Origin: Amphibacillus jilinensis Y1
GTDB lineage: Bacteria > Bacillota > Bacilli > Bacillales > Amphibacillaceae
Length of the DNA: 64,000 bases
Assembly: GCF_000306965.1 (NCBI RefSeq)
Contig: NZ_JH976434.1
Coordinates: 474,102 to 538,101, forward strand
Direction: 5' to 3'
Made by a program: the position numbers and the translations under genes. The notes under the pieces are model-generated. The model saw only the letters and a program-made list of their open reading frames with translations. It had not been told where the DNA came from and did not search any database. This document shows positions 2,387-26,408 of this stretch, one piece after another. Each line of letters begins with the position of its first letter. Position 1 is the first letter of the stretch.

Positions 2387-3163
2387 TTACCCTTCACGCA
2401 TATAAGGTAAAGCTGTATTCTGAGCCCATCGTTTTTTTATCTCAAGTGCCCGGCTAGGAAAATCAGTAATAATACCATCAATTCCAAGCTTAAATAATAA
2501 CGTCAATGTTTCCTCATCATTAACCGTCCAAGCTCTCACGCGTGTTAAATCAAGCTGGTTTAAAAAATAACGATCCTTTAGTAATGAAGCTTCAATATGC
2601 AAATAAGTCATATTGTAGCTTAGATAATAATCCATAACCTGTGGTATCGGTTGGTGAATCAACCAAGCAATAGTAGCCTCAGGGTCGATTGCCTTTAGAC
2701 GCGTTAAGGTAGGTAAATGAAAAGAGGAGTAGGTGACTTCAATCCGATTCATGTAACCTTGAACACAATCAATTAGCTTTTGCTCAATACCATCATATTG
2801 ATTGAAAGCAGTTTTTAGTTCAATGTTTACTTTGATACGCTTTTGTACGACTAAATCTAATACCTCACTAAGTAATGGAATCCGCTCTAAATCCCAAGAA
2901 GGATCATAGTTAGTGTACGTTTGATAAATTGAAGAGAGTGTCATTTTTTTGAGTTCTGACCAGTTATAATGATTAACGAAACCTTGGGCATTAATGGTCC
3001 GCTCTAACGTTTCGTCATGTATCACAATAAGTTGATCATCTTTCGTTAAATGGACATCTAACTCCACCCCATCAACACCTTCATAAATGGCTTGGCGCAT
3101 ACTTAACATTGTGTTTTCAGGGTATAAACCTTTACTACCACGATGACCATATACATCTACCAT
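2387..3163 (-). CDS. ugpQ: Glycerophosphodiester phosphodiesterase
   Basis: Hydrolyses glycerophosphodiesters to sn-glycerol 3-phosphate and an alcohol. 258 residues with no signal peptide, so cytoplasmic. The GDPD TIM-barrel signature is at the N terminus: GHRGSKGLYPENT (catalytic HR and E), then GVELDVHLTKDDQLIVIHDETLER (metal-binding E-x-D and catalytic H), and NIELK later. Last gene of a ugp-like ABC operon, the same gene content as enterobacterial ugpBAECQ, so it probably acts on diesters brought in by the transporter. GGAGTG precedes the ATG by eight bases. Confidence 0.9.
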   Translation of the reverse strand: MVDVYGHRGSKGLYPENTMLSMRQAIYEGVDGVELDVHLTKDDQLIVIHDETLERTINAQGFVNHYNWSELKKMTLSSIYQTYTNYDPSWDLERIPLLSEVLDLVVQKRIKVNIELKTAFNQYDGIEQKLIDCVQGYMNRIEVTYSSFHLPTLTRLKAIDPEATIAWLIHQPIPQVMDYYLSYNMTYLHIEASLLKDRYFLNQLDLTRVRAWTVNDEETLTLLFKLGIDGIITDFPSRALEIKKRWAQNTALPYMREG

Positions 3164-3285
3164 TCGGCCTCACTCCTTCAGTCACTATTTTTCACCTTAT
3201 GCTTAGTGGCTAACAATTTTGGTGTTGTTCTTTTCCGTTTCTATGCTAACGCCTCAATTAATGAGTCAATGTTAAGCGCACCTTG

Positions 3286-4659
3286 TTATTCTCCTCTCGC
3301 ACGATTGGCTTGATCAATCGCACCATTTATTTGTTCAACCATTGTTTGATAAGCTTGATCAATGTCTCCATCATTATAAACGGTTTCCAGCGCAGTCTCT
3401 GTAATACGACGCGCCTCTGGAATCATGTCCATCAGTGCACCCTCAGTCGCAAATGACGAGGTAGTTGATTGAAGTTGATCCACTGTCACCTTTAATTGTG
3501 GCATAGCTTCATAAGCATCAAGAACAACTTGCTCTTGATAAGCAGCTGGGTTAATCGCAAAATAGCCAGTACCTACATGCCATTCAGCTTGTACTTCTGG
3601 TGTTTGCAAATATTTCATAAAATCCCACGCAGCCTGTTGTTCTTCTTCTGGTTGACCATTCATCATCCATAGGCTTGCTCCACCGATTACCACGCCATGA
3701 CGTTCTTTTTCCTCCGGGTAAGGTAAAAAGGCGACCCCTACTTCAAACGATGCTTCATCAACCACCTGACGCACATTGGCAGATGAGGCTATAAACATAG
3801 CGACATCTTCAGCAAAAAAGCCAGAAATCATATTATCACCATTTGTTCCGTAGTTTGCAAATGTTTCATCAGCCATCATTTGTTCAACCCATGCGAACAC
3901 TGATTTCCCCTCTTCTTCTGTAAAACCTACTTCAGTCGGTGTTTCAGAACGACCATTGTCATTATTCATAAGAAGCGCGCCTTGATTAGCAAGCAGTTGC
4001 TCGTACAGCCAACCATAAGCTTGAAGAGCAAAGCCTTTCATATCAGGATTATTTGCAACAATTTGTCGGCTCACTTCCTCTACCTCTTGATAAGTGGTCG
4101 GTGGTGAATCAGGATCTAGTCCAGCCGCTTCAAACGCGTCTTTATTGAAATACATCACAGGTGTGGACGAATTAAATGGCATAGAATAAAATTGATCGTC
4201 TACCCGGTAATAATTAATAATGTTTTCCTCTAAATGATTCATATCATAACCATCTTGATCAACAAACGTTTGGATCGGTTCAATTCCACCACTGTTAATC
4301 ATTGATTTTGTCCCAATTTCAAACACTTGCATCATCGTCGGCGCACTGTCAGTTCCAGCAATGCTATTAAACTTTGTCAGTGCTTCATCATAAGTACCTT
4401 GATATTCAGCCTTTACGAACACCTCGTCTTGGCTCTGATTATATTGGTCAACAATTTGATCTAATGCATCCTGTAAAGCACCACCCATCGCATGCCAAAA
4501 TACGACTTCAACAGGTGCTTCATCTCCACCTTCATCAGAGCTTTCTTCTGCCTTATTGGATGCGTCATCTTGCGCTTCAACCTCTTGATTTGTTTCATTC
4601 GTTTGGCAACCCACTAGAAATAACATTAATGCAAAGCATATCAACCATACCTTCTTCAT
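3286..4659 (-). CDS. ugpB: Glycerol 3-phosphate/glycerophosphodiester-binding lipoprotein of ABC transporter
   Basis: Extracellular solute-binding protein, 457 residues. A lipoprotein signal peptide with lipobox LVGC (Cys18) is followed by an acidic Glu/Asp-rich linker to about residue 50. The mature part begins VEVVFWHAMGG and contains YQGTYDEALTKFNS, a segment typical of UgpB rather than of maltose-binding proteins. It is followed by ugpQ and preceded by two permeases and a MalK-type ATPase on the same strand, so the substrate is inferred to be sn-glycerol 3-phosphate or glycerophosphodiesters. GGAGGG lies eight bases before the ATG. Confidence 0.88.
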   Translation of the reverse strand: MKKVWLICFALMLFLVGCQTNETNQEVEAQDDASNKAEESSDEGGDEAPVEVVFWHAMGGALQDALDQIVDQYNQSQDEVFVKAEYQGTYDEALTKFNSIAGTDSAPTMMQVFEIGTKSMINSGGIEPIQTFVDQDGYDMNHLEENIINYYRVDDQFYSMPFNSSTPVMYFNKDAFEAAGLDPDSPPTTYQEVEEVSRQIVANNPDMKGFALQAYGWLYEQLLANQGALLMNNDNGRSETPTEVGFTEEEGKSVFAWVEQMMADETFANYGTNGDNMISGFFAEDVAMFIASSANVRQVVDEASFEVGVAFLPYPEEKERHGVVIGGASLWMMNGQPEEEQQAAWDFMKYLQTPEVQAEWHVGTGYFAINPAAYQEQVVLDAYEAMPQLKVTVDQLQSTTSSFATEGALMDMIPEARRITETALETVYNDGDIDQAYQTMVEQINGAIDQANRARGE

Positions 4660-4715
4660 AAAAAGACCCTCCTTATTTTTTCTTATTTAATTGAATAAAG
4701 CATATACTTGATCAT

Positions 4716-5534
4716 TTATTTTAAAGCACCTTCTGTCAGACCTTGTTGCAACTTTTTCTGCCCGATAAATAGCAAAACTAAAGTTGGAATCACGACAATT
4801 ACAGCACCTGCCATAATTACGCCCCATTCATTTAATTGTTCTTGCGTTTGCAATTGCCTCAATCCAATTTGCACTGTTCGAAAGCGATCATCAGTTGTTG
4901 CTAAAAGTGGCCAAAGATACATATTCCATGATGTTAAAAAGCCATAAACACCCAGCGTAACTAGACTCGACTTTGCAACAGGTAAAACGACTGTTAAATA
5001 AAATTTAAAATCACCAATACCTGAAATTTCGCTAGCTTCCTTCAATTCTTTTGGGATCTGCTTAAAATGCTGTCTAAGTAAAAATGTGCCAAATGCCATG
5101 GCGAAGAATGGTACCGACAGACCTGGATAGCTGTCAATCCAATTTAGATCTCTAATGGTATGAAAGTTTGGAATGATTGATGCTTCAAATGGCACCATCA
5201 TCGTTGCTATAAAGATAAAAAAGATTAAATCGCGTCCCTTGAAATTAATGAAAACAAACGCATAAGCAGCCAAACTAGAGATGGCTAATTGACCGATCAT
5301 GATCAGCAAAGAGACGATTAAACTATTAAGTAAGTATTGCACTAATGGAAAACGCTGAAAGACTTGCACGTAATTATCGAATGTTAATGAACGTGGAATA
5401 ATTTGCCCAGTCATGATTTCTTGGTTCGACATGAAGCTCATCATGAACGCAATAAAAGTTGGTGCAAAAACGAGCAAAGCTGATAACGTTAGTAATGTAT
5501 AAAAAACGACTTTATGATGAAGGGGGACAGTCAT
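4716..5534 (-). CDS. ugpE: ABC transporter permease, UgpE/MalG type
   Basis: 272-residue inner-membrane permease of the carbohydrate CUT1 class with six predicted transmembrane segments. The cytoplasmic EAA loop is visible as KEASEISGIGDFKFYLTVVLP, the segment that docks on the ATPase. The start overlaps the stop of the preceding permease by four bases, implying translational coupling. Second permease of the glycerol-phosphate-type importer. Confidence 0.9.
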   Translation of the reverse strand: MTVPLHHKVVFYTLLTLSALLVFAPTFIAFMMSFMSNQEIMTGQIIPRSLTFDNYVQVFQRFPLVQYLLNSLIVSLLIMIGQLAISSLAAYAFVFINFKGRDLIFFIFIATMMVPFEASIIPNFHTIRDLNWIDSYPGLSVPFFAMAFGTFLLRQHFKQIPKELKEASEISGIGDFKFYLTVVLPVAKSSLVTLGVYGFLTSWNMYLWPLLATTDDRFRTVQIGLRQLQTQEQLNEWGVIMAGAVIVVIPTLVLLFIGQKKLQQGLTEGALK

Positions 5535-6469
5535 TGATAATGCACCTTCCTTTCACCTAATTTAAACTGAATAACAGTTAACACTAAGATGAGGACAAAC
5601 AAAATAATGGCTTGTGCACTAGCTGTTCCAAATTGATAATTCATAAATGCTTCTTGATAAATGGAATAAACCATTAAATAGGTTTCGTTTTGGGGACCAC
5701 CACGTGTTAACATATCAATTTGTCCAAACGTCTGAAAGGCATTAATAAAAGTAACGGTAATAACAAAGAACAAGGTTGGCGACAACATCGGTAAGGTAAT
5801 ACGTCTTAGTTGATACAAATAACCAGCCCCATCAATATCAGCACTTTCATAAAGATAGTGATCAATCGATTGAAGACCACCTAATAAAACCAGGAAGGTA
5901 AAACCAATATTCATCCAGATCGTTGAAATAGCAACAGATATTAAGGCCCATTCCGGATCGGTTAACCAGCCAATAGGTGCGGAACCGAAGGCATTTAACA
6001 ATTGATTGAGCCAGCCAATCGTTGGGTGAAACAGGAACAACCAAAACACCGAAGCGGCTGCTGTTGATATCCCCATCGTCGAAGCATACATCGTCCGAAA
6101 AAAACCAATACCTTTCAATTTCTCATTAGCTACAATCGCTAAAAATAAGCTAACCAATATGGCACCTGGCACCGTATATAGGACAAATAGAAATGTAGAT
6201 TGTAGGCTTTTCAAAAATATCGGTGATGAAAAAATATTTTGATAATTTTCCAATCCTACAAATACTGTTGGCATACCACTACTGTTCGTTAAAAATAAAC
6301 TCAAATAAATCGTACGTCCTAAAGGATAAAACAAAAACAGGCTGAACAATAATACTGAAGGCGCTAAAAAAGTAAATCCTTTAAACATTTTTATTCGTTT
6401 TTGTTTTTTAGTTATGCGTTCTAAGTCATTCGCTTCTAATTGTTTAATGGGGATCGCTAGTTGATTCAT
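5531..6469 (-). CDS. ugpA: ABC transporter permease, UgpA/MalF type
   Basis: 312-residue CUT1 permease. About 35 cytoplasmic residues precede the first transmembrane segment; the EAA loop reads YESADIDGAGYLYQLRRITLP. Its start overlaps the ATPase stop by four bases and its stop overlaps the next permease, so the three are tightly coupled. It pairs with UgpE to form the channel. Confidence 0.9.
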   Translation of the reverse strand: MNQLAIPIKQLEANDLERITKKQKRIKMFKGFTFLAPSVLLFSLFLFYPLGRTIYLSLFLTNSSGMPTVFVGLENYQNIFSSPIFLKSLQSTFLFVLYTVPGAILVSLFLAIVANEKLKGIGFFRTMYASTMGISTAAASVFWLFLFHPTIGWLNQLLNAFGSAPIGWLTDPEWALISVAISTIWMNIGFTFLVLLGGLQSIDHYLYESADIDGAGYLYQLRRITLPMLSPTLFFVITVTFINAFQTFGQIDMLTRGGPQNETYLMVYSIYQEAFMNYQFGTASAQAIILFVLILVLTVIQFKLGERKVHYQ

Positions 6470-7578
6470 AGCGCAACGACCTCCAAATGTTGATTCACTG
6501 TAGGTGCTTGAATGAGAGCGCCAGAATCACGATTGAAAAAGCTAAAATGTTTAATCGATAATGACAAAGGTACACGTTCGCCAACTCGTATTAACCATTG
6601 ACCAAGCCATTTAGCTGTCCACAATTCCCTTCCTACTTCAAATGTTAGTAGGGTTTCATTTCCTAAATGTTCAATATTTATTACTTCTAGCCACAGATCT
6701 GCTTCTTCTGGCTTTGCATAACTAAGGTGTTCTGGTCTAATCCCTACAATTAAATTCCCTCGCTGCATCACCTGTGGAATATCACTCATGTTCAATGAAA
6801 GTTGAAGGGTCTGTTCAATCATGAGTTGCTGGTCGCCAATCATTGCTTCTCCAAAATTCATCTTTGGCGAGCCAATGAATGACGCAACAAATAGATTAGC
6901 AGGCTGATTGTAGAGTTCAATTGGCTCTCCAATTTGTTGGATAGTCCCATCATTCATTACCATAATCCGATCGCCCATCGTCATCGCCTCAACTTGATCA
7001 TGCGTCACATATATCATAGTCAGTCCTAATTTTTTCTGAAGCCTACGAATTTCAACACGCATATGTGCTCTTAATTTGGCGTCTAAGTTAGACAGAGGCT
7101 CATCCATCAGACATAACGGCGCTTGACTAACGACAGACCTTGCCAGCGCTACCCGCTGTCGTTGACCGCCTGATAATTGCTTCGGTTTACGATCAAGCAA
7201 ATCGGTTAACCCCATCATCTCCACTGTCTCATAGAGCCTCCGTTCTTGTTCAGCTTTTTTCACCTTTTTAGCATGAAGACCGAAAAGAATATTTTGCTTA
7301 ACAGTCAAATGAGGATATAGGGCATAGTTTTGAAAAACCATTGATAAGTGGCGATCCTTCGGAGGCAAATGATTAACAATGTTACCATTGAGCCTCAATT
7401 CCCCACCTGTAATACTCTCCAGTCCAGCAATCATTCGTAACAAAGTGCTTTTCCCAGATCCTGATGGGCCAACCAAAACAAAAAATTCACCTTCTTCAAT
7501 GGTTAAATCAATATGTTCCAGTACACTAGTTGTTTTGTCATAAAATTTAGACACAGCTGTCAATTCAACTGGATGCAT
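6466..7578 (-). CDS. ugpC: ABC transporter ATP-binding protein, MalK/UgpC/MsmX type
   Basis: Energises sugar or glycerol-phosphate import. Walker A GPSGSGKST, Q-loop FQNYALYPH, signature LSGGQRQR, Walker B LCLMDEP, then a C-terminal TOBE/regulatory domain with GIRPEHL; about 370 residues as expected. The ATG at 7578 is chosen over one 42 bases upstream because AGGAGG lies nine bases before it. First gene of the ugp-like operon. It is the only carbohydrate-type ATPase in the window, whereas two other CUT1-like importers (31.0-34.6 kb and 58.5-61.7 kb) lack one. Members of this family such as MsmX serve several importers, so it could be shared. Confidence 0.92.
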   Translation of the reverse strand: MHPVELTAVSKFYDKTTSVLEHIDLTIEEGEFFVLVGPSGSGKSTLLRMIAGLESITGGELRLNGNIVNHLPPKDRHLSMVFQNYALYPHLTVKQNILFGLHAKKVKKAEQERRLYETVEMMGLTDLLDRKPKQLSGGQRQRVALARSVVSQAPLCLMDEPLSNLDAKLRAHMRVEIRRLQKKLGLTMIYVTHDQVEAMTMGDRIMVMNDGTIQQIGEPIELYNQPANLFVASFIGSPKMNFGEAMIGDQQLMIEQTLQLSLNMSDIPQVMQRGNLIVGIRPEHLSYAKPEEADLWLEVINIEHLGNETLLTFEVGRELWTAKWLGQWLIRVGERVPLSLSIKHFSFFNRDSGALIQAPTVNQHLEVVAL

Positions 7579-7728
7579 GCGGATAAACCTCCTCATAAAG
7601 ATTTCTGCGATTACATCCACAATGTATCACAAAAAATGCACCAATATGCTATTTTTACCAAATCATAACATTTATTTTACATGAGATATAATGTTTATTT
7701 ATATCGTTAATAATACAAATCTTAATCA

Positions 7729-7847: not shown

Positions 7848-8417
7848 CTAAGCCGCAGAGGGAAATATACTCGCTTTCCGCGGACGAGCGCCCAAGCCTC
7901 CTCGCAAAGACCGCTGTGGGGTCTCGGTCGCCCCTTTTCCGTAGGAGTCTCGCATATTTCCTCTGCTATGTGCTATTTCAAACGAGAGCCTTTTTAACTT
8001 CTGATGGTCAAATAATCGAAAGGGAAGGTTCGTTGTCATCCCTACCAAGCGAGCTGCACTACGAAAAGAATGGAAGACCGTGTATGCTAATGCTGTTGTT
8101 TTCAAAGCATTTGTCCAACGTTGATAATAATCCGCCATTTGTAATCGTTCATAAAAAGGACGGCTACAATTAGGACACAAATATCTTCGCTTTTTTAATG
8201 ATATCTTCACATCTTTATTAGAAAGGACTGGACCTTGAATCTCCTGTCTTCTATAACTATGCACTCGGTTTGTTTTCTCCTTACAGAAAGGACATTTTTG
8301 TTGTTTTTGCTTTGTATAGAGTTCCACAATCAAGCTCCTAGATTCTTCGGTTACACCCCATACGTCTACATGCTTGTCTTTAATTCCCAATAATTCTATG
8401 ATAAAATGACGTTGCAC
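7848..8417 (-). pseudogene. Truncated ISL3-family transposase, chimeric C terminus
   Basis: GTG start with GAGGGG seven bases upstream. Residues 1-145 are the N-terminal region of ISL3 transposases: CPFC...CPNC zinc finger (Cys42, Cys45, Cys81, Cys84 approximately), then a helical DNA-binding part. The DDE catalytic domain is missing. From about residue 151 the frame runs into a 112-bp intergenic repeat, which supplies an unrelated Arg/Gly-rich tail ending RPRKASIFPSAA. Not expected to transpose. Confidence 0.8.
7855..7966. repeat. 112-bp GC-rich palindromic element inside the transposase remnant
   Basis: Ends in imperfect inverted repeats GCAGAGGGAAATAT and ATATTTCCTCTGC. The core contains GCGGACGAGCGCC and GGAGTCTCGC, the hallmarks of the Bacillaceae intergenic element also seen at 19.3 kb and 52.5 kb. 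GTGCTATT occurs on both sides (about 7839-7846 and 7970-7977) and may be a target duplication. Confidence 0.6.
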
Positions 8418-8726: not shown

Positions 8727-10082
8727 TCACCAACCGTATTTTTTATTTCCCCACTCTTTTTCAATATGCTCTTCTTTTTTTATTAGCAGCGTTTCATGGG
8801 ATACATCTTTTTCAATATTTAACCCTGGATAAAGTGCACATTCACTTCCGACTTTCACTCCTGGAAAGAAAACATTGTTTACCCCTGTCCGCGTATAATC
8901 ACCAATAAATACTGCATTAGCATATTTATCTGAGTAACTTCTTCCATTTATTCTGTGTGTTTTACTTGTATCATTAAATCGCAAAATCCCACAAACACAT
9001 GCCGCCGCAACATCCACATATTGGCCAATCACTCCATACATTTCACTGTAATGGATGGCAGAAATACCTCTCATTGTCACACCTTCAATTTCAGCATTAT
9101 GTCCAATTCTGTTTTCATCACCAATCACCGTATTTGATTCAACTTTAGCATAGTCCTTAACATAAGAGTGATCCCCTATCAGTACTGGACCGTTTATGAT
9201 CGCACCAGTATCAATTTTCACGTTATTCCCTACAATCACATTCCCATTAATGGTAACATTTTTACCTATGAAAGAATGTTCACCTAAGGTAACATGTCCA
9301 TTTATCGTTGCTTCTTCAGAGATAAATGAATGATCCCCGATAGTTGTTTCTTGGAGTTCTTCAGCATATTTTTCAAGATAATCACTATTTACATGTAAAA
9401 TATCCCATGGAAACTGCAAATGGTGTACTTTATCTTGAGCAAATATAGCTTGAATCCTATTCCCTTCTTCCAAATAGTCATTCAATCCATTTTCTAAAAA
9501 TAATCGATTAGGAATCATTGAACCTGTTACACGATGGTTAAAACCATAATTAGCATATGCAATAGAGTCTAGAGCCCGTTTATCCAACTTGTAAGCTCCA
9601 GACACTTCAGCAGTCACATAATGGTCTCTTGCATGAGCTAAAAATTTAACAACCTGATTATTCTCTACTTGCGCGCCAATCATATCAATGCTTTCTTGTT
9701 TTTTATGCGTCAATAGAACACTTGAAGCCGCTTCAGACGCCATCAGAGAAGTTATATCATTCGATGTTATAAGATAATTACCCTTCTGGATAATGACCCC
9801 TTCTTCAAATGTTTCATTATTTGTTCTTAAAAAGCTGTCTAAACTTATACTGGATTCAATCTGTTGAATGTTTTTATATTTCTTCAACAAACGTCTTGTT
9901 TGATCTGCTTTATAGTTTAAAAATACATAAATATCCGATTCTGAGATACCGGATTCTAATAATTGCTCAATTTGCCAAAAAATCATTTCCTTATTTAAAA
10001 GGGGAAGACTATTTACTTGATAGTGTTTATCAAACGGAAACATTTTATCTTGCCGATCATTACATAGTAAAAAAGCTTTCAT
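8727..10082 (-). CDS. GlmU-like protein: degenerate nucleotidyltransferase domain plus left-handed beta-helix acyltransferase domain
   Basis: 451 residues. Residues 1-235 have the length and fold pattern of a sugar-1-phosphate nucleotidyltransferase, but the GxGTRM...PK signature loop is missing: the start reads LLCNDRQDKMFPFDKH, so NTP transfer is doubtful. Residues 247-330 are hexapeptide repeats (IGDHSF, LGEHSF, IGKNVT, VGNNVK, IGDHSY, IGDENR), forming a left-handed beta helix. Residues 365-425 (ILRFND...IGDYTRTGVN...PGVKVG) resemble the C-terminal acyltransferase part of archaeal GlmU-like enzymes such as ST0452. Third gene of an operon with a SIS protein and a GntR regulator. Amino-sugar acetylation is an inference only. 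GAGGGAG lies six bases before the ATG. Confidence 0.75.
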   Translation of the reverse strand: MKAFLLCNDRQDKMFPFDKHYQVNSLPLLNKEMIFWQIEQLLESGISESDIYVFLNYKADQTRRLLKKYKNIQQIESSISLDSFLRTNNETFEEGVIIQKGNYLITSNDITSLMASEAASSVLLTHKKQESIDMIGAQVENNQVVKFLAHARDHYVTAEVSGAYKLDKRALDSIAYANYGFNHRVTGSMIPNRLFLENGLNDYLEEGNRIQAIFAQDKVHHLQFPWDILHVNSDYLEKYAEELQETTIGDHSFISEEATINGHVTLGEHSFIGKNVTINGNVIVGNNVKIDTGAIINGPVLIGDHSYVKDYAKVESNTVIGDENRIGHNAEIEGVTMRGISAIHYSEMYGVIGQYVDVAAACVCGILRFNDTSKTHRINGRSYSDKYANAVFIGDYTRTGVNNVFFPGVKVGSECALYPGLNIEKDVSHETLLIKKEEHIEKEWGNKKYGW

Positions 10083-10109
10083 CTCTATCTCCCTCTCATC
10101 TTACTTTTT

Positions 10110-10159
10110 TTATCACAGATAACGTCCGTAAAGCACCCACTGATTGCAGGTTCGTTTTA
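10110..10159 (-). repeat. Short-form family 1 repeat inside the operon
   Basis: Minus strand begins AAAACGAACCTGCAATCAG and ends TTTACGGACG followed by TTATCTGTGATAA. It has both termini of the family but lacks the roughly 100-bp middle. It lies between the GntR and GlmU-like genes. Confidence 0.65.
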
Positions 10160-10209
10160 TGCTTCAGAAAGAAATTTAAGAGAAGAGCATTTAGAGAACG
10201 TTACGCCTT

Positions 10210-10920
10210 TTATTTATAAACTGTATGCACTAAGTAAAAACTTTCAGTTTGATAGAGTGCATAGCCTATATTAAATGGTTTTCCATTCTCTAAACAAGCA
10301 ATATTTTTTGTATCAATAAGCGGTGATCCTTCTTCAACATTTAAAAAGTCACCCATTCTAGAATTAGCTAAAGTTGCACTAATTTTTTGATCTACAAATT
10401 CATATTCAATACCTTGCTTACTTAGATGCTCGTATATAGATTTTTCACAAATTTCTATGTTTAGTTCCTTAACAATTTGAACATCAAAGTACTCTATCTC
10501 ATATGAAACAGCTACGTCGTCTGCATATCGAATTCTTTCTACTAACCACATCTCTTCTCCAACAGCAATTTTCATGTCTTTGGCTTGTGTTTCATTTGCC
10601 TTTACCTTTTCTAACTTTAATAACTTCGTTGAAGGCTTCATCCCTCGACTTCTAACTTCTGACGAAAAGCCAATTCCTGCTTTAAACCCAAAAAACTTAG
10701 GTAAAGGATTAACGAAAGTTCCTACCCCTTTTTTCTTGGAGAGTATTTTTTCATTAACAAGCTCTTCAATCCCACGTCTAACTGTAATTCTTGATACCGC
10801 AAGATGATCAGCTAATTCTGCTTCTGATTCAATCATTTGGTGAGGCTGATAAATGCCTGCTTTAATTTGACTCAAAATATAATTTCTTACTATTTCATAC
10901 TTCGTAACTTTACTTGTCAT
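10210..10920 (-). CDS. GntR/HutC-type transcriptional regulator with UTRA domain
   Basis: 236 residues. The N-terminal winged helix (about 1-70) includes ESEAELADHLAVSRITVRRGIEEL and the wing KKKGVGTFV. The C-terminal UTRA ligand domain (about 90-235) usually senses a sugar phosphate. It lies between the SIS gene (73 bases upstream) and the GlmU-like gene in one direction, so it is probably the local repressor. An interrupted inverted repeat ATAACTTGTTAT (10944-10955) lies just before its start and resembles half of the palindrome in front of the SIS gene, so autoregulation is likely. AAAGGA precedes the ATG. Confidence 0.9.
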   Translation of the reverse strand: MTSKVTKYEIVRNYILSQIKAGIYQPHQMIESEAELADHLAVSRITVRRGIEELVNEKILSKKKGVGTFVNPLPKFFGFKAGIGFSSEVRSRGMKPSTKLLKLEKVKANETQAKDMKIAVGEEMWLVERIRYADDVAVSYEIEYFDVQIVKELNIEICEKSIYEHLSKQGIEYEFVDQKISATLANSRMGDFLNVEEGSPLIDTKNIACLENGKPFNIGYALYQTESFYLVHTVYK

Positions 10921-10993
10921 AATAACGATCCTTTCTATCTGTCATAACTTGTTATTATTATAACACTAGAAAAGACAGAAAACTCACTTTGAC

Positions 10994-11737
10994 TTACTTC
11001 CAATATCCATAGTATTGATGAAACAATCTATCATTATACTCATCGGCTCCGTCTAAATTAGAACTCTTAAATACTGGAATATCTAACCCAGCGTCTCTTA
11101 AACGTGAAACGACTCCAATGATAATAGATTGTGCAATTCCTATTCCTGTAAAATCAGATGTTGGACCTAAATCAGCTTCCACACCTTCTATGTGGTAAGC
11201 AGCATCCCCTTTAGGTGCATGACTATCGATCGTAACATCTGCAATTTCATAAATATTTTTTCCTGACTTATGACGAGAAGATACGGATTGAGAATGCTCC
11301 ATAGAGGTTAACGCTATCACCTTTGCCCCTATCTTCTTCGCTTCTAGGCACATTTCAACGGGGATGTTATTTCTCCCTGAATTTGAAACAACCATCAGGG
11401 TATCTTTAGCTTCAACCTTATAAAGCGATAGCATATTTTTGGCGTAACCGTCTAACCGCTCCATATACGTACTTTTATTTGGCATTTGGTGGAGCATTAA
11501 TTCTGGTGGTAAGATACCTTTCACATAGGCAAGACCACCTGCCCTGATATAAATCTCTTCTGCTACCATATGCGAATGACCAGAACCAAACACATAAAAA
11601 CGACCATCATTTTTGCAGCTTTGGAAAATCAATTCTGATGCTTGATTGATCGACTCGCCTTCACTTTCTATCACTTTAGTCCATGTATCACCTAAATAAT
11701 TCAAAAACTGTGTAATATCTTGCTTAGAAGTTGTCAT
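10994..11737 (-). CDS. SIS domain protein, UPF0309 family (putative sugar-phosphate isomerase or binding protein)
   Basis: 247 residues. SIS (sugar isomerase) fold: FGSGHSHMVAEEIYIRAGG near residues 50-70, and the phosphate-binding loop VVSNSGRNN around 117-125. The C terminus has the family signature KSSNLDGADEYN. Paralogous to the SIS protein at 19502-20239, sharing RAGGL, SGRN, EAKK, SRH-SG and NLDG motifs. First gene of the SIS-GntR-GlmU-like operon, with a promoter and palindromic operator upstream. The substrate is unknown; a phosphorylated amino sugar is plausible from the neighbours. GGAGG lies eight bases before the ATG. Confidence 0.85.
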   Translation of the reverse strand: MTTSKQDITQFLNYLGDTWTKVIESEGESINQASELIFQSCKNDGRFYVFGSGHSHMVAEEIYIRAGGLAYVKGILPPELMLHQMPNKSTYMERLDGYAKNMLSLYKVEAKDTLMVVSNSGRNNIPVEMCLEAKKIGAKVIALTSMEHSQSVSSRHKSGKNIYEIADVTIDSHAPKGDAAYHIEGVEADLGPTSDFTGIGIAQSIIIGVVSRLRDAGLDIPVFKSSNLDGADEYNDRLFHQYYGYWK

Positions 11738-11769
11738 TGTTATGCCTCCATTTCAATTTATGAATACAT

Positions 11770-11797
11770 ATTATCACAACATGTTATAACATGTAAA
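11770..11797 (-). promoter_or_regulatory. Promoter and palindromic operator of the SIS-GntR-GlmU-like operon
   Basis: Minus strand TTTACA (11797-11792), 16 bases, GATAAT (11775-11770). The perfect 16-bp palindrome ACATGTTATAACATGT (11779-11794) fills the spacer and overlaps the -35, the expected place for a GntR repressor site. Confidence 0.65.
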
Positions 11798-18336: not shown

Positions 18337-18474
18337 AACATCTTGCAGGAAACAAGATGGTTTTGTCGAATTTTAACTTTAGGAACTAAACGATCAACAT
18401 GCTCAGCATATACAACCCCATATATTTTTGGTAAAATTAGGACTGTACTGACTGGCGAAGAAGGGGGACACAAG

Positions 18475-19203
18475 GTGATTAATAAAAATTCTCCAATTCC
18501 AATTTATTATCAATTAGAAGAGATCATTAAGAAAAAAATACAATTAGAAGAGCTTCAACCTGGAGATGTATTGCCGTCTGAAAGAGAATATGCTGAGGCC
18601 TACAATATTAGTCGGATGACAGTGCGACAAGCGATTAACAATATGGTTAATGAAGGATTACTTTACCGACAAAAGGGCCGAGGAACTTTTATAGCAGATC
18701 AAAAATTCGAGCAAGATCTATCCGGATTAACAAGCTTCAGTGAAGATATGAAAAAACGCCATCATATGCCTTCTAATCAATTGATTAGTATTCAATTGAT
18801 CAACACCACACCTTTGATTAACAATAAACTTAACCTTGCTGCTGGTGATTTTATTTACGAAATAAAACGCTTACGTCTTGCAGATGATGAGCCAATTGCC
18901 CTTGAAACCATCTATACACCTAAAAAATTTGTTGGGGAAATTGATAAAGCGCAGGTAACTCAATCGTTCTATGACTATATCGAAAATCAACTTAAACTTA
19001 AAATTGTCCATGGCCTACAAACCATTGAAGCTGCTTTAGCTAATAAAGATGAGATAAAATATTTAAATATTAAAAAAGGAGACCCCATTCTTCTTATGCA
19101 AAGAACTTCTTATCTAACAGATCAAGAGGATACACCGATTGAATATGTAAAGAGTGCTTATCGTGCAGATAAATATAAATTTAATATGCACATGAAAAGA
19201 TAA
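18475..19203 (+). CDS. GntR/UTRA transcriptional regulator, NagR (YvoA)-like
   Basis: 242 residues, the same length as B. subtilis NagR. The winged helix (1-75) contains PSEREYAEAYNISRMTVRQAINNMVNEGLLYRQKGRGTFIA; the UTRA domain follows (90-240). NagR-type repressors respond to amino-sugar phosphates. The start is a GTG at 18475 with GGGGG seven bases upstream; the longer open frame beginning at 18343 has no homology or ribosome site. It faces the PTS operon convergently. Two dre-like sites over PTS promoters at 22.34 and 26.43 kb are the likely targets. The TAA stop is also the first bases of a family 1 repeat. Confidence 0.88.
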   Translation: MINKNSPIPIYYQLEEIIKKKIQLEELQPGDVLPSEREYAEAYNISRMTVRQAINNMVNEGLLYRQKGRGTFIADQKFEQDLSGLTSFSEDMKKRHHMPSNQLISIQLINTTPLINNKLNLAAGDFIYEIKRLRLADDEPIALETIYTPKKFVGEIDKAQVTQSFYDYIENQLKLKIVHGLQTIEAALANKDEIKYLNIKKGDPILLMQRTSYLTDQEDTPIEYVKSAYRADKYKFNMHMKR

Positions 19204-19252
19204 AACGAACCTTCAATCAGTGTGCGTTTTACGAGCGGTTAACTGTGATAAA
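19202..19252 (+). repeat. Short-form family 1 repeat
   Basis: AAAACGAACCTTCAATCAG joined directly to GTTTTACGAGCGG and TTAACTGTGATAA, both termini without the middle. Overlaps the regulator's stop codon. Confidence 0.65.
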
Positions 19253-19496
19253 GAGGGTGAGACATAACTAAATAATGAAATGGCGTATCCGAACATTCTG
19301 AACAAAGCGCAGGAAAAACACGTAGACTCCTGTGGGAATAGCACGGGCTGAGGATCCACTGTGTGAAGTGTATTTCTTCACACAGTTAGCCGAAGCCGTG
19401 CCCACGGAAAGCGAAGTGTTTTACCCAAGCGCTATATGTATCAGACATTAATGTTCGGATTTTTCTTATCTTGTTACTCTTTTGTCCCAGGCTCTT
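19251..19496. mobile_element. 246-bp MITE-like element with nested inverted repeats
   Basis: The ends are imperfect inverted repeats (AAGAGGGTGAGACA and, reversed, AAGAGCCTGGGACA). Inside is a perfect 11-bp pair ATCCGAACATT/AATGTTCGGAT. The core is a GC-rich palindrome with GACTCCTGTGGGAATAGCAC and CCGTGCCCACGGAAAGCG, the typical Bacillaceae repeat also found at 7.9 and 52.6 kb. No open frame. It fills the gap between the convergent GntR and SIS genes. Confidence 0.6.
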
Positions 19497-19501
19497 TACT
19501 G

Positions 19502-20239
19502 TTAAAATCGATAATGTATCGTATCTTTATATTGTTTAAATAGGGCTTTATTCAATTGATCTCCACCATCGAGATTAGCACTGTAGAATATAGGTGGCTC
19601 CTCATGACCTGCTTCAACTAACCGCTTAACTACTTCGGCAACAATCGTATTAGCGATCGTCGCCCCAATTACAGTAGAAGTTGGGGCGACCTTTTGATCT
19701 ATGCCTTCGATTTGTATCGTTGCATCGCCGATATCACCATGATTATCAATAATCACATCACAGTAATGGTACATATTTTCCCCACTCGGATGTCTTGATT
19801 CAACATTTTTAGAGTAAGATAGATTTGTAATCCCTATAATGTTTACACCTTTTTTCTTAGCTTCAATTGCCATTTCAATCGTGACAGGATTTCGCCCTGA
19901 AACAGAATGAAGAATCAGTACATCTCCTTTGGTAAATGGCGTTTTTTCTGCTAGTAACCTACCATAACCCACCATTCGCTCCATTTTACTTGTATGGGTA
20001 ATTGGCTCAGTATCTAGCATAACCTCGCGACCAAAGATTGGGTTAACATTAATAAGACCACCCGCTCTAAAATAGAGTTCTTGAGTTATAATACTTGCAT
20101 GACTTGCCCCAAAGGCAAAAATCGCTTGTTTTTTTAATGTAGCCTCTGTCATCATGACTACCGCTTGATTTATCTGCTCTTGTTGTTCGTACTCAACTTT
20201 ATTTAGAAGCGCACGAATCTTATCAAAGTAGGAAAACAT
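19502..20239 (-). CDS. SIS domain protein, UPF0309 family, PTS-linked
   Basis: 245 residues. SIS motifs: FGASHASIITQELYFRAGG near 40-58 and HSVSGRNPVTIEM near 110-122; C-terminal signature SANLDGGDQLNK. Paralogue of the protein at 10994-11737. Its start is one base after the IIC stop codon, so it is translated as part of the Ula-type PTS operon and probably acts on the phosphorylated sugar that the PTS delivers, for example as isomerase or deaminase-like enzyme. The exact reaction is not known. Confidence 0.85.
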   Translation of the reverse strand: MFSYFDKIRALLNKVEYEQQEQINQAVVMMTEATLKKQAIFAFGASHASIITQELYFRAGGLINVNPIFGREVMLDTEPITHTSKMERMVGYGRLLAEKTPFTKGDVLILHSVSGRNPVTIEMAIEAKKKGVNIIGITNLSYSKNVESRHPSGENMYHYCDVIIDNHGDIGDATIQIEGIDQKVAPTSTVIGATIANTIVAEVVKRLVEAGHEEPPIFYSANLDGGDQLNKALFKQYKDTIHYRF

Positions 20240-20240
20240 A

Positions 20241-21506
20241 TTATCCTAGCACTCCTGATATTAAATCAGCTAGCCATTTGGCAATGGGGCCAAATAATGA
20301 AAAATCATTTCCACCAAAGACGAGCATCCAATTTTGGATAGTAGAACTATAAATGATGACAGACACACCCATTAAGGCAACCATAGCAATAGAAGCAACA
20401 GCAGATCCAACAATAGCACCGCGCTGACCACCTTGGCCTTCACCAATCACCGCAGCCCCACCGCACTCAAAGAATGAGGTAACAACCAGTGGAATCAAAA
20501 TCACACCAAATAAATTAAATGCATTGGCAATAACGATCATCACCGTGGAAGTCAACATTGCTGCTATAAAACCAATGATGACAGCATTAGGCTTATAATT
20601 GAATATAATCGGAACATCTAATGCAGGTAGAGCACCAGGAATTAATTTTTCTGAAATCCCCTGAAAAGCTGGGATAATCTGATTAATTAACATCCGAACA
20701 CCATAAAGCATAATTAATAAACCAGCACCAAAGGTTAAACCTTGATTAAATGCTAAAAAGAATGGATTTTCACCTTCAACCACAATTGTGGGTTCAATAA
20801 ACCAAACAGCTATATACATAAGAAAAATAACAATACCACCCGTAATCGATATTTCTCTAAAAAATGATAATTGTTTAGGCACATTAATATCTTCTGTAGA
20901 GTTTTCTTTATTACCGACACGTTTTGCTACAAAACCAGATATTAAACTTAGTATTCCGGTAGGATGACCAATTAAGAAAGACTGATCTTCTGTAACTGCC
21001 CATACATAGTTCCGCATCAGCCATGGCATAAATGACCAGTATGAGGCTGATAAAACCGCACCAAAAACAATTAACACCACGCCACTAAGACCTGCTTCAA
21101 CGCCAGCAGCAACAAAGATAAAAGGGAACCACCACAACATATGACCTGTTAAGAAAATTGTTTTAACTTTTGTAAAACGCGCAATCAATAAGTGCAAGAT
21201 TAAACCTAAAAACATCGCTAATCCAACATCACCACCATACGAAGCAGTAAATGTTGCATCATTTAATGTTTCGCCTACAGAGATGTCACCAGCTACCACT
21301 TCTTGAAAAGCTGCATTAATGGGAGAAATTGTACCAACAATTAACCCAACACCAGCATCAAGAATAATCATACCAAATGCAGCAGAAAGTGAGCCTTTAA
21401 TGATATCAGCAATATTCTTTCGTTGAACAATTAAACCTATCATCGCAATTAAGCCCAATAGTATCGGGGGATTGCGTAATATGTGTTCTGTAAAAAAACT
21501 CATCAT
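20241..21506 (-). CDS. PTS sugar transporter subunit IIC, ascorbate (UlaA/SgaT) superfamily
   Basis: About 421 residues with 10-11 hydrophobic segments. N-terminal FFTEHILRNPPILLGLIAMIGLIVQRK, then GFMIILDAGVGL-like, GHMLWWFPF and FECGGAAVIGEGQGGQRGA are features of the UlaA/SgaT fold. An ATG at 21506 with GGAGGG nine bases upstream is preferred to a GTG at 21512 that would overlap the IIB stop. Genes for IIA, IIB and a SIS protein flank it in one operon. The substrate need not be ascorbate: the SIS gene and NagR-like site suggest an amino sugar or similar. Confidence 0.88.
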   Translation of the reverse strand: MMSFFTEHILRNPPILLGLIAMIGLIVQRKNIADIIKGSLSAAFGMIILDAGVGLIVGTISPINAAFQEVVAGDISVGETLNDATFTASYGGDVGLAMFLGLILHLLIARFTKVKTIFLTGHMLWWFPFIFVAAGVEAGLSGVVLIVFGAVLSASYWSFMPWLMRNYVWAVTEDQSFLIGHPTGILSLISGFVAKRVGNKENSTEDINVPKQLSFFREISITGGIVIFLMYIAVWFIEPTIVVEGENPFFLAFNQGLTFGAGLLIMLYGVRMLINQIIPAFQGISEKLIPGALPALDVPIIFNYKPNAVIIGFIAAMLTSTVMIVIANAFNLFGVILIPLVVTSFFECGGAAVIGEGQGGQRGAIVGSAVASIAMVALMGVSVIIYSSTIQNWMLVFGGNDFSLFGPIAKWLADLISGVLG

Positions 21507-21508
21507 TT

Positions 21509-21790
21509 TCACTTCCCTCCATTCTCTTGAAATTGATCAACTGCTTGTCCAACTTCTTCCTTATCCATATAACGTTTAATCGGAAACACCGGACAGTTCA
21601 CACTATCTTTTAATTCTTCACCGAGCTCGTGCGAAGTAAATATCGCAGCCGCATCGGTTCCTTTTGCCGAGCTAATATCTGTATTCTCTACCTCACAGTC
21701 GATACCTCTTTCCTTACACGCTTTTTCAATTGACATTTTCAATACCATCGAAGAACCAACACCAAAACCACAGACCGCTAAAAATTTCAT
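21509..21790 (-). CDS. PTS subunit IIB, ascorbate/lactose-type (SgaB-like)
   Basis: 93 residues. The phosphorylatable Cys is in LAVCGFGVGSSMVLKM (Cys7), the P-loop of IIB proteins of the Ula/Gat group. Transfers phosphate from IIA to the sugar at IIC. It lies between the IIA and IIC genes. Confidence 0.9.
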   Translation of the reverse strand: MKFLAVCGFGVGSSMVLKMSIEKACKERGIDCEVENTDISSAKGTDAAAIFTSHELGEELKDSVNCPVFPIKRYMDKEEVGQAVDQFQENGGK

Positions 21791-21840
21791 CTTTAATCCA
21801 CCCTTTCACTTCATGATAATATGTGAGCAATCTATCCTAT

Positions 21841-22269
21841 TCAAGATTGTAACACTTGATAAATCTGTTCCAAATCACCTGATATAAAGCGTTGATAGTT
21901 ATCTTCATCAGCTAAGATCCGAGAAATCTCGCGCAGGCTTTGCATATGGCTATCCGCATCTATTGCAGCCAATACGATAAATATATTCACTGGGTTTCCT
22001 TTCAGATCAACTGGCTGGTTGACTTTAAGTAATGACATAGCCAATTGATTAACCCCTTCACCTGCCTTTGCATGCGGTAAAGCAAAATAGTCCATTAACA
22101 CAATATAGGGGCCATTTTGATTAACACTAGCAATCATGTTCTTAACATAAACGTTTTCGATATAACCAGCCTCAAGTAAGGGTTTACTAGCGAACTCAAT
22201 GGCAGCTTCCCATGTTTCAATATGTTCAACTTGTTGCATATGCTCTTTAGGTAACACGTCTATTAACAT
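21841..22269 (-). CDS. PTS subunit IIA, fructose/mannitol type (EIIA_2)
   Basis: 142 residues, no other domains. The active-site His is in MDYFALPHAKAGEGV (about residue 74), the EIIA_2 signature. First gene of the IIA-IIB-IIC-SIS operon. GGAGGTG lies before the ATG. The promoter at 22315-22343 carries a dre-like operator. Confidence 0.9.
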   Translation of the reverse strand: MLIDVLPKEHMQQVEHIETWEAAIEFASKPLLEAGYIENVYVKNMIASVNQNGPYIVLMDYFALPHAKAGEGVNQLAMSLLKVNQPVDLKGNPVNIFIVLAAIDADSHMQSLREISRILADEDNYQRFISGDLEQIYQVLQS

Positions 22270-22314
22270 TTCCCATCACCTCCTTCAGCGCGTGAAAGCG
22301 TATACGATAACCAT

Positions 22315-22348
22315 AGTATAGCAATTAAATATATAGTTGTCTATACCA
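22315..22348 (-). promoter_or_regulatory. Promoter of the Ula-type PTS operon with dre-like GntR operator
   Basis: Minus strand TAGACA (22343-22338), 17 bases, TATACT (22320-22315). The operator TGGTATAGACAACT (22348-22335) covers the -35. The same word in the same position occurs at the nagE promoter, 26409-26442. It resembles the NagR/DasR dre site (TGGTCTAGACCA type). Confidence 0.7.
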
Positions 22349-22360
22349 GTTACTCTAAAA

Positions 22361-22505
22361 CAAAACGTCAATCAGTGAGGTTTTCATAATTCTAGCACTG
22401 ATTGGTAGCATAGTGAATCAGGACATTTGTGTCCATTATATCCCTCTTAAATGCTCTGCTCTCTATTCTGAGCATTAGTTTTTACGAATGGTTAGCTGTG
22501 ATAAA
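22361..22505 (+). repeat. Full-length family 1 repeat
   Basis: AAAACGTCAATCAGTGAGG at the left, GTGAATCAGGACATTTGTGTCC in the middle, TTTTTACGAATGGTTAGC and TGTGATAA at the right. With the two promoters at 22.3 and 22.57 kb it accounts for the gene-free stretch 22270-22668. Confidence 0.65.
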
Positions 22506-22557
22506 ATGAATAGCACTTATTATCATTATACTAGTTTATTTTAGATTGAACATACAA

Positions 22558-22587
22558 TTGTCATAAAATCTGACAAGTTTTTATAAT
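22558..22587 (+). promoter_or_regulatory. Promoter of the MGMT-like gene
   Basis: TTGTCA, 18 bases, TATAAT, about 80 bases before the GTG start. Confidence 0.5.
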
Positions 22588-22668
22588 GATCATATAATGT
22601 TAAAATGTAATATAGGCTGGACTCTAAAACGATAAGATTGTTAATTAATAGCTACGGAGGGATGAAAC

Positions 22669-22977
22669 GTGAATCCTTTTACAGAAAAAGTGGTTAAGCA
22701 AATTAAAGCGATTCCTAAGGGGAAAGTTAGAAGTTATAGTGAAATAGCAAGAGAAGCTGGGAATCCGCGTGGTGCAAGACAAGTCGCACGTATCCTCCAC
22801 TCTATGAGCGCCAAATACGATTTACCTTGGTATAGAGTAGTCAATGCTCAATACCATGTTTCACTGCCAGCAGGTGCTGCTCGTGATCAACAAATAAATT
22901 GCTTACGACAGGAAGGTATCGACGTTGATGACCAAGGGAGAATCGATTTGTCTCAGTTTAAAAGGAAAGCTGATTAA
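22669..22977 (+). CDS. MGMT family protein, alkyltransferase-like (ATL)
   Basis: 102 residues: only the C-terminal DNA-binding domain of O6-alkylguanine-DNA alkyltransferases, with the helix-turn-helix GNPRGARQVARIL. The active-site PCHRV is PWYRV here, with Trp54 replacing the acceptor Cys, so it cannot accept alkyl groups. ATL proteins of this kind bind alkylated bases and flag them for nucleotide excision repair. GTG start with GGAGGG seven bases upstream. Monocistronic. Confidence 0.88.
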   Translation: MNPFTEKVVKQIKAIPKGKVRSYSEIAREAGNPRGARQVARILHSMSAKYDLPWYRVVNAQYHVSLPAGAARDQQINCLRQEGIDVDDQGRIDLSQFKRKAD

Positions 22978-23021
22978 ATGAATAAATCGACTATCATTGT
23001 TTTAATGGACACAATGTTCCT

Positions 23022-23145
23022 ATAAAACAAACCTTCAATTCGTGTTGTTCGTTCACTATTTGTTAGTTGGACATTAACGTCCGTAAGCTCCCACCAAATA
23101 GATTACTTCTTCGGGCGAGAACTTTATAGACGGTTATCTGCAATA
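23022..23145 (+). repeat. Full-length family 1 repeat, diverged
   Basis: TAAAACAAACCTTCAATTCG, then TTGGACATTAACGTCCGTAA, CTCCCACCAAATAGATTAC, and ATAGACGGTTATCTG at the right end. Confidence 0.65.
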
Positions 23146-23212
23146 TACATGTTGTTATTATCATTGACTAAATCGCCTTAACAAAGCTGCTAGCTGCTTG
23201 TAATAAACATGT

Positions 23213-23854
23213 TTAAAGGAACACAATCTTAGTGCCATGAAACGTGTTAGTTCTGACTGCTTTTGCTACTTCCTGTAAATTAGCAACCGTTATTCCACCA
23301 CCGACCATTATGTCTAGTTTATCAGCGACATAATCAATATAGTGATTGATCTCATCCGCATTTTCAATAACCGTTTTATCCGACCGATTACCATGTAAAA
23401 GAATCCGATCAAAACCAAGTTCAATAAGCTTATCTAAAGTTTGGTGTTTTTTAGAAAGATCAACCTGGTCAAAGGCCATGTGAAAAGTGAAGTCAATGTT
23501 TGATATGCCGTCCATTAAATATTGACAAGCCTGAACATCTAATTGATGATCTGCTGTAAGACAGCCAAAGACAATACCTGTAACCCCTTGTTTGATCGCT
23601 TGAAGGATGTCGATCCTCATCGTGATTAACTCCTGCTCACTATAACAAAAATCCCCCCCGCGTGGACGAATCATAACAGACAATTCCACACCGGTTGATT
23701 GACAAAGCTTTGCCGCTTGATCAATGATTCCATAGCTAGGTGTGGTACCGCCTACAGCAAGATTGTCGCACAATTCGATACGATCAACTCCAGCTTTAAT
23801 TGCTTTTTCTAGATAGGTGTTATTCTCAGCGCAAAATTCTCGGATCATTTTCAT
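23213..23854 (-). CDS. cutC: CutC family protein
   Basis: About 213 residues, TIM-barrel CutC family. Signatures: DRIELCDNLAVGGTTPSYG and MIRPRGGDFCYS, FHMAFDQ, and LLHGN-SD. Known originally as a copper-homeostasis protein, but that role is poorly supported, and the setting here is sugar metabolism. The start at 23854 overlaps the stop of the DUF7916 gene by four bases, with no separate ribosome site, implying translational coupling. It was most likely recruited to a pathway fed by the NagE-type PTS. Confidence 0.85.
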   Translation of the reverse strand: MKMIREFCAENNTYLEKAIKAGVDRIELCDNLAVGGTTPSYGIIDQAAKLCQSTGVELSVMIRPRGGDFCYSEQELITMRIDILQAIKQGVTGIVFGCLTADHQLDVQACQYLMDGISNIDFTFHMAFDQVDLSKKHQTLDKLIELGFDRILLHGNRSDKTVIENADEINHYIDYVADKLDIMVGGGITVANLQEVAKAVRTNTFHGTKIVFL

Positions 23855-24771
23855 CGTTTTGGCGAACTGCACATGCGGGTATAAGTGTGACGTTTTCCAC
23901 GGATCGTAATGGAATATGTAGTAATATTTTCTGGTATAGCAAGACCAGTGAACCCCGCATCACCAATATGGTGAATATCTGCGCCAATCATTTTGTTTTG
24001 CAATGCAATTTGCTGTATCGTTTGTTCGCTTGCACCTTCTTGGCTCGTGCCAATTGTCAACATGGCTAAACTACCCAATTGATGGATTTTATTCACCCAT
24101 TGGTTAGCCATATCAATCGTTATTCCTGGAACAGTTCCAGGTGATGGAATTAAAATGACATCTGCACCGGCCTTAACAAACCGCTCAATTGTTTGATCGT
24201 CTATAATTGTTTTACCGGCTTCCTGGGACACCCCTGCTCCATGCATTTTACCTGCAATAATAAAAGCACGTGTGCCAATTAATTGACGTGTACGCTTGAT
24301 AGCATGTTCAATCTCTTTATTTGTCACACCCGTTTTAGGATTTCCTGTCAAACAAATAAAATCAATATCTATTGCTTGGAGTGCTTTTAACGTTCTTTCA
24401 CTAGCTGTTCTTCCCTCTGGAAGCTGATTCAGCTCTTCCGCTGCAACTGCATTGACATCAATCGGTTCAATGTTGACTCCTATTGGGCGACCGGTTAAAT
24501 CTTTAATATAATTTACTAGTTGAATCGCATTCCCTGCAAATGTTAGATCTTCAATGACTGGGTTAAACAAATCGAACATATTTAATAAAATCATATCTGC
24601 GCCAAACCGAGAAACGATTTCTTGATTAGTGATACCTGGGTATAATGGTGGTGCAGTACATACTGTTTCACTAATAAGTACACGCCCCTCACTCGCTTGA
24701 ATCGCTTGAATATAATCTTCACGTTGCATCTGCTTAAAATCTGAAGCAACACAATCTAATAAGCGTTTCAT
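23851..24771 (-). CDS. DUF7916 family protein (often misnamed HAD-like hydrolase)
   Basis: 306 residues. No HAD motifs (no DxDxT). The pattern fits a TIM barrel: GADMILLNMFDLFNP, GRPIGVNIEP, FICLTGNPKTGV and KAGADVILIPSPGTVPG, ending each predicted strand. I recognise it as the family now called DUF7916, which is commonly next to PTS permeases. Biochemical function unknown. It is separated from nagE by a strong terminator and followed by coupled cutC. AGGAGG lies before the ATG. Confidence 0.7.
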   Translation of the reverse strand: MKRLLDCVASDFKQMQREDYIQAIQASEGRVLISETVCTAPPLYPGITNQEIVSRFGADMILLNMFDLFNPVIEDLTFAGNAIQLVNYIKDLTGRPIGVNIEPIDVNAVAAEELNQLPEGRTASERTLKALQAIDIDFICLTGNPKTGVTNKEIEHAIKRTRQLIGTRAFIIAGKMHGAGVSQEAGKTIIDDQTIERFVKAGADVILIPSPGTVPGITIDMANQWVNKIHQLGSLAMLTIGTSQEGASEQTIQQIALQNKMIGADIHHIGDAGFTGLAIPENITTYSITIRGKRHTYTRMCSSPKR

Positions 24772-24878
24772 AAATAATTAAATACCTCCTTATTTTTTAA
24801 TGTTAATTTATCTTTAGAACTAAACGTTTTTCACTTCTTTACTATCATTCAACCTCTCTTAACTGATGGAAAAAGGAT

Positions 24879-24917
24879 AAAGATAAAACAGCAAGCAAGG
24901 CCTACTGTTTTATCTTT
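24879..24917 (-). terminator. Terminator between nagE and the DUF7916-cutC pair
   Basis: A 13-bp perfect stem AAAGATAAAACAG/CTGTTTTATCTTT, seven bases after the nagE stop. It may attenuate rather than block expression of the two downstream genes. Confidence 0.8.
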
Positions 24918-24924
24918 ACAATGC

Positions 24925-26373: not shown

Positions 26374-26408
26374 TATAAAAACCCCCATCCCTAATTAAAC
26401 ACATAGAT

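Follow-up and report, generated by a model that had tools for sequence, protein, structure and literature searches.

The SIS-GntR-GlmU-like gene trio of Amphibacillus jilinensis: conserved linkage, a local operator and loss of nucleotidyltransferase residues

Two-domain enzymes of the GlmU type include the bacterial GlmU (TIGR01173) and the archaeal GlmU (TIGR03992), the latter represented by ST0452 of Sulfurisphaera tokodaii, a bifunctional sugar-1-phosphate nucleotidyltransferase/acetyltransferase. GMPPA, a non-catalytic paralogue of GMPPB, provides a precedent for a dead nucleotidyltransferase and beta-helix domain kept as a sensor. In this eukaryotic protein the ligand is a nucleotide sugar, and the regulated partner is the paralogous nucleotidyltransferase.

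Among SIS proteins of the UPF0309 family, NagS (SCO4393) is the GlcNAc-6-P dehydratase of Streptomyces, with 6P-chromogen I as its product. Its essential residues are His53, Arg64, Glu94 and Asp179, and Ser91 and Asn228 complete the catalytic set (PMC12680351). When NagS homologues from Clostridium, Paenibacillus and Acidothermus (25-36% identity) were assayed, none dehydrated GlcNAc-6-P (PMC12680351), thus the NagS residues alone do not fix the reaction. No paper on UPF0309 under that name was found in the literature, and none of the literature found reports a function for BH3325 (PDB 3cvj), a structural-genomics "putative phosphoheptose isomerase". The GntR/HutC regulators NagR/YvoA and DasR combine a wHTH with a UTRA domain, and in NagR the residues Arg211, Glu222, Ala224 and Ser226 line the sugar and acetyl side (PMC4333415).

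Gene trio, neighbours and operator

The window, i.e. the whole stretch of DNA analysed, comprises 64,000 nt of Amphibacillus jilinensis Y1 (GCF_000306965.1, NZ_JH976434.1 474,102-538,101). Three genes on its minus strand encode a NagS-like SIS-domain protein of the UPF0309/PRK02947 family (10994..11737, 247 aa), a NagR-like GntR/HutC repressor with a UTRA domain (10210..10920, 236 aa) and a GlmU-like protein (8727..10082, 451 aa). The first-pass annotation, made from the sequence alone, had described the three as transcribed together behind a promoter, and this arrangement holds, all ORFs being on the minus strand. No Rfam family was found in the trio region, and a literature search for a SIS-GntR-GlmU-like trio found nothing.

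Linkage of the three genes was confirmed in other genomes: SIS and GntR genes adjoin the GlmU-like gene in 13 of 13 loci (12 in the genome collection and one on an Enterococcus faecalis plasmid), within surroundings that otherwise differ. The hosts are scattered Gram-positive bacteria, among them Amphibacillus, Oceanobacillus, Virgibacillus, Shouchella, Clostridium and Enterococcus. Two gene orders occur (SIS-GntR-GlmU and SIS-GlmU-GntR), the linkage persists down to 43-53% protein identity, and a SIS gene adjoins the GlmU-like gene in five of seven distant relatives. Of 161 genomes from the taxonomic family of the window, 10 hold close relatives of the GlmU-like protein, the window's genome being one of them. 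Such a patchy distribution, together with the plasmid copy lying between transposase genes, shows horizontal transfer, and the three genes could then be adjacent by accident, their linkage reflecting the recent spread of one segment and not a shared function. Against this stand the persistence of linkage at such low identity, the two gene orders, the SIS linkage in distant relatives and an operator conserved with the gene set; this explanation is already disfavoured and is regarded as highly improbable.

In 6 of the 13 loci the trio has a ceramidase-like amidase gene, or what is left of one, directly beside it, and in two a YdjC-type gene is close by. At the window trio the ceramidase-like gene is absent, and none was detected genome-wide in a search run without a positive control. 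In Oceanobacillus oncorhynchi (locus L016, 5696-8245) the gene is split by a two-gene insertion resembling an IS21-type element. The E. faecalis plasmid (LR962301.1 10450-35805) carries the whole trio between near-identical transposase genes, as a mobile operon copy, with the ceramidase-like gene reduced to its end. Across the loci the trio has no constant transporter or kinase partner. The UgpC-type ABC transporter and GDPD genes downstream of the trio were rejected as parts of a module, since they adjoin it only in the window and in Amphibacillus cookii. In the window these genes span 2387-7620 and encode the UgpC-type ABC transporter, two permeases, a binding protein and a protein resembling glycerophosphodiester phosphodiesterase; their probable role is glycerophosphodiester uptake, and their order is conserved with A. 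cookii. Between them and the trio lies a truncated ISL3-type transposase (7848-8417, zinc-ribbon part only) that is missing from the A. cookii locus. The locus recorded under Roseburia sp. 1XD42-34 is syntenic with that of Virgibacillus chiguensis; this genome is probably misnamed.

The promoter (TTTACA-16-GATAAT with an extended -10; 11770..11797, minus strand) is overlapped by a perfect 16-bp palindrome, ACATGTTATAACATGT (11779..11794), the predicted operator of the GntR protein. The palindrome had been described as forming the promoter spacer; it is perfect and the promoter is present, but the spacer is covered only in part. The palindrome takes in the final 3 bases of the -35 and the first 13 of the spacer, so the earlier placement was off by three bases. 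A second, degenerate operator-like stretch, GTGTTATAATAATAACAAGTTATGAC, was read directly from the sequence in the SIS-GntR gap (10924..10993, minus strand). The 3.8 Mb genome holds a single exact copy of the 16-mer and one more site at 1 mismatch. Operator sites with 0-2 mismatches are found 42-59 bp upstream of the SIS gene in 11 of the 13 loci, a match level reached 0 times in 2000 shuffles per locus; the palindrome is above chance. The same promoter/operator layout recurs at the Amphibacillus, Oceanobacillus and Virgibacillus proomii loci, and V. proomii has an extra operator copy between the -35 and -10 of the promoter preceding its GlmU-like gene. No wider regulon emerged from the genome-wide operator search, the sole extra 1-mismatch site adjoining unrelated short genes and a transposase-like ORF. 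Conservation of the predicted operator in 11 of 13 loci, with near uniqueness in the genome, points to local regulation by a module that regulates itself.

SIS protein and regulator

The SIS protein passes NCBIfam model NF002805 with 301 bits (cut-off 135). It matches PDB 3cvj (BH3325) at E 2e-83 and 53% identity, and PDB 9eol (SCO4393/NagS) at E 2e-42 and 34% identity. NagS residues His53, Ser54, Arg64, Glu94, Ser119, Ser121, Asp179 and Asn228 are kept. According to the residue table Ser91, replaced by Thr, is the only change in the catalytic set, and Gly227 is replaced by Ser. S91T and G227S (NagS numbering) constitute the "NKSTYLER" subtype signature. Thr91/Ser227 is common to all SIS proteins linked to GlmU-like genes except that of locus L033, which retains Ser91; it is also present in BH3325 and in locus L076 and absent from SIS proteins linked to nagA/nagB. 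UPF0309 SIS proteins are common in Bacilli (56 of 350 genomes sampled). Ordinary relatives in Bacilli adjoin NagA, NagB, GntR/NagR and PTS genes (named by sequence recognition), which ties the family to amino-sugar phosphates.

A second SIS paralogue is present in the window (19502-20239, ~38-40% identical to the first), within a region (18343-26388) that also holds a GntR gene, PTS components, a CutC-like protein (23213-23872) and a protein at 23851-24771. A homologue of this last protein also adjoins the SIS-GlmU-like pair in locus L037.

The regulator has the wHTH and UTRA architecture of NagR-like GntR/HutC proteins (UTRA domain, E 5.5e-31; NagR/YvoA 2wv0, E 3e-29). As in NagR/YvoA and DasR, phosphate-binding residues are present: the NagR phosphate contacts Thr/Ser90, Arg133, Arg135, Ser165 and Tyr167 are kept, as is Glu145. 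Unlike those regulators, it is altered at the sugar and acetyl side. In every trio regulator Arg211 is replaced, Glu222 is Asn and Ala224 is Gly, and Ser226 is mostly Ala. It differs from them also in its predicted operator, whose core, GTTATAAC, is presumably not a NagR dre site, going by the dre-type consensus. The SIS protein and the regulator are unrelated, and alteration of the sugar side with retention of the phosphate side in both suggests that the two share a ligand, a sugar phosphate other than GlcNAc-6-P. Two observations are new here: S91T/G227S in a SIS protein with the NagS essential residues, and a changed sugar/acetyl side in a regulator with the phosphate clamp.

The pathway, earlier called unknown, can be narrowed, since the SIS protein falls within the NagS/UPF0309 family and the regulator is of the NagR family. 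An ordinary GlcNAc-6-P module, with a NagS-type dehydratase, NagR as regulator and a GlmU-like protein that recycles GlcN/GlcNAc phosphate, would account for these family assignments, for the kept NagS catalytic residues and for the Bacilli SIS relatives beside nagA/nagB/nagR. It would not account for the substrate-side substitutions found in both SIS and GntR proteins of every trio copy, nor for an operator core presumably unlike the dre site. The inactivity of distant NagS homologues (PMC12680351) also counts against such a module, which is considered improbable.

The two domains of the GlmU-like protein

The GlmU-like protein is similar in length and domain order to bacterial GlmU, an enzyme of cell-wall precursor synthesis, and scores below cut-off with both family models (47 bits against 367 for TIGR01173; 129 bits against 292 for the archaeal-type TIGR03992). 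It is a member of an unnamed family, its close relatives (43-92% identity) being few and scattered. That it is a spare GlmU was ruled out by a canonical GlmU elsewhere in the same genome (contig C12, 607 bits).

The N domain (residues ~1-240) is a predicted pseudo-nucleotidyltransferase. It had been noted earlier that GxGTR and the following Lys are missing; this is confirmed, and the second metal Asp is gone as well. In all 13 close members of the clade the GxGTR-type NTP loop is missing, as are the Lys after it and the second metal Asp (in DxDKPW), the first metal Asp being variable, and a check for a canonical NTP loop among the close homologues found none. A near-canonical GxGxK loop, the Lys, YGD and DxDKPW are retained in seven distant relatives, of which six fall at 29-37% identity in the residue alignment and the seventh is from locus L096. 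In a maximum-likelihood tree the loss of NTP loop, Lys and DxDKPW falls on one branch with support of 100/100, the outgroup branch being very long. Its polarity as a loss follows from the general rule that the NTP loop is ancestral in nucleotidyltransferases, and not from the tree root.

In close pairs the N domain has a dN/dS of 0.10-0.26, i.e. it is under purifying selection, which rules out decay and implies that the domain is retained and still does something. Purifying selection, and the existence of relatives with a GxGxK loop, would also be expected of an active nucleotidyltransferase with an unusual loop; with glycines, Lys and DxD aspartate all missing from 13 of 13 members, such activity is very hard to credit. 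His150 and Arg152 are invariant in 17 of 17 aligned sequences from both clades and presumably lie near the RmlA "EKP" sugar-phosphate position, to which they were aligned by eye. A role for this domain as scaffold or sensor is reasonable.

The C domain (residues ~245-435) terminates in an invariant YGW and contains four Hexapep stretches (Pfam Hexapep, E 5.8e-20). An AlphaFold model with mean pLDDT 75.9, low at residues ~344-382, replaced an earlier, poor model built from 12 close sequences (pLDDT 63). The predicted model and the Hexapep matches together give the two-domain fold, a Rossmann-like domain followed by a left-handed beta-helix. Its best PDB match is ST0452 (E 4e-17, TM 0.59-0.68), GlmU comes next, and GMPPA/GMPPB structures are also among the fold matches.

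Likeness to ST0452 extends from the two-domain architecture and the best sequence and fold match to the last-coil region (RTG-N-PGVK-G-YPG). Beyond the missing NTP loop, Lys and metal Asp, the GlmU-like protein differs from ST0452 at the acetyltransferase residues, which we take to be His308, Tyr311, Asn331, Lys337 and Lys340. By HMMER alignment His308 alone is kept, as His344, and the others become Glu347, Ile366, Thr372 and Thr375. The acyltransferase part had been described as looking intact, and this stands for the beta-helix fold but not for the acceptor site; replacement of four of the five ST0452 residues makes the earlier claim weaker than stated. The first-pass suggestion of a sugar-phosphate acetyltransferase that keeps its N domain as scaffold or sensor is partly supported: the retention it supposed fits purifying selection, but the acetyltransferase part is intact in fold only. 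Distant relatives whose nucleotidyltransferase site is intact largely share these replacements, and the C domain thus has its own conserved signature (HYxE...DIAA...RFxD...GDxxRTG...PGxKxG). It is the more conserved half, with a dN/dS of 0.06-0.13 in most pairs.

Our reading is that the C domain is an acyltransferase for a different acceptor; given the replaced ST0452 residues, it may not acetylate amino sugars at all. The main rival is a non-enzymatic role, in which both domains would bind a sugar phosphate or nucleotide sugar and, as allosteric sensor or scaffold, control the SIS protein. The lost nucleotidyltransferase residues, the largely replaced acceptor residues and the constant SIS partnership are in line with it. 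GMPPA, found with GMPPB among the fold matches, is a dead paralogue that inhibits GMPPB (PMC11228364); its partner is a paralogous nucleotidyltransferase, and no such partner is encoded at the trio. The greater conservation of the C domain, the invariant His344 and the ST0452-like last coil are as expected of an active site, and the same C-domain signature occurs in relatives with an intact nucleotidyltransferase site. A protein devoid of catalysis is therefore judged unlikely, though it carries real weight.

A possible amino-sugar phosphate module

The best explanation, put forward tentatively and at somewhat short of an even chance, is that the trio forms a module complete in itself that handles, and is induced by, a phosphorylated 2-amino(acyl)-sugar similar to GlcNAc-6-P but distinct from it. 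The NagR-like repressor would occupy the palindrome over the promoter and be released once the sugar phosphate binds the UTRA domain. The SIS protein would perform NagS/MurQ-type chemistry on the sugar 6-phosphate, i.e. ring opening followed by elimination or isomerisation at C2-C3. The GlmU-like protein would be a trimeric hexapeptide acyltransferase whose target is the amino group of this sugar or its product, and its nucleotidyltransferase domain, predicted to be unable to bind NTP-Mg, may have been kept for holding or sensing the sugar phosphate. The cytosolic ceramidase-like amidase, an operon member in several genomes, might remove or exchange the N-acyl group. From this a bolder and rather doubtful proposal can be drawn, namely an undescribed N-acylated sugar phosphate pathway. 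Its members would be the ceramidase-like amidase, a SIS lyase/isomerase of the NagS type and a hexapeptide acyltransferase bearing a sugar-phosphate-sensing pseudo-nucleotidyltransferase domain.

The only function found for UPF0309 is that of the Streptomyces enzyme, which those distant homologues that were assayed lack. The trio supplies an operon, an operator, two diagnostic residue sets and a partner enzyme, which open the question of substrate to direct test. In evolutionary terms, too, the case is a clean one, a bifunctional sugar enzyme in which one active site was lost once and the domain was kept. If true, the N-acylated sugar phosphate pathway would assign one branch of UPF0309 a function and would provide a bacterial counterpart, in a different pathway, to the eukaryotic dead-nucleotidyltransferase sensors.
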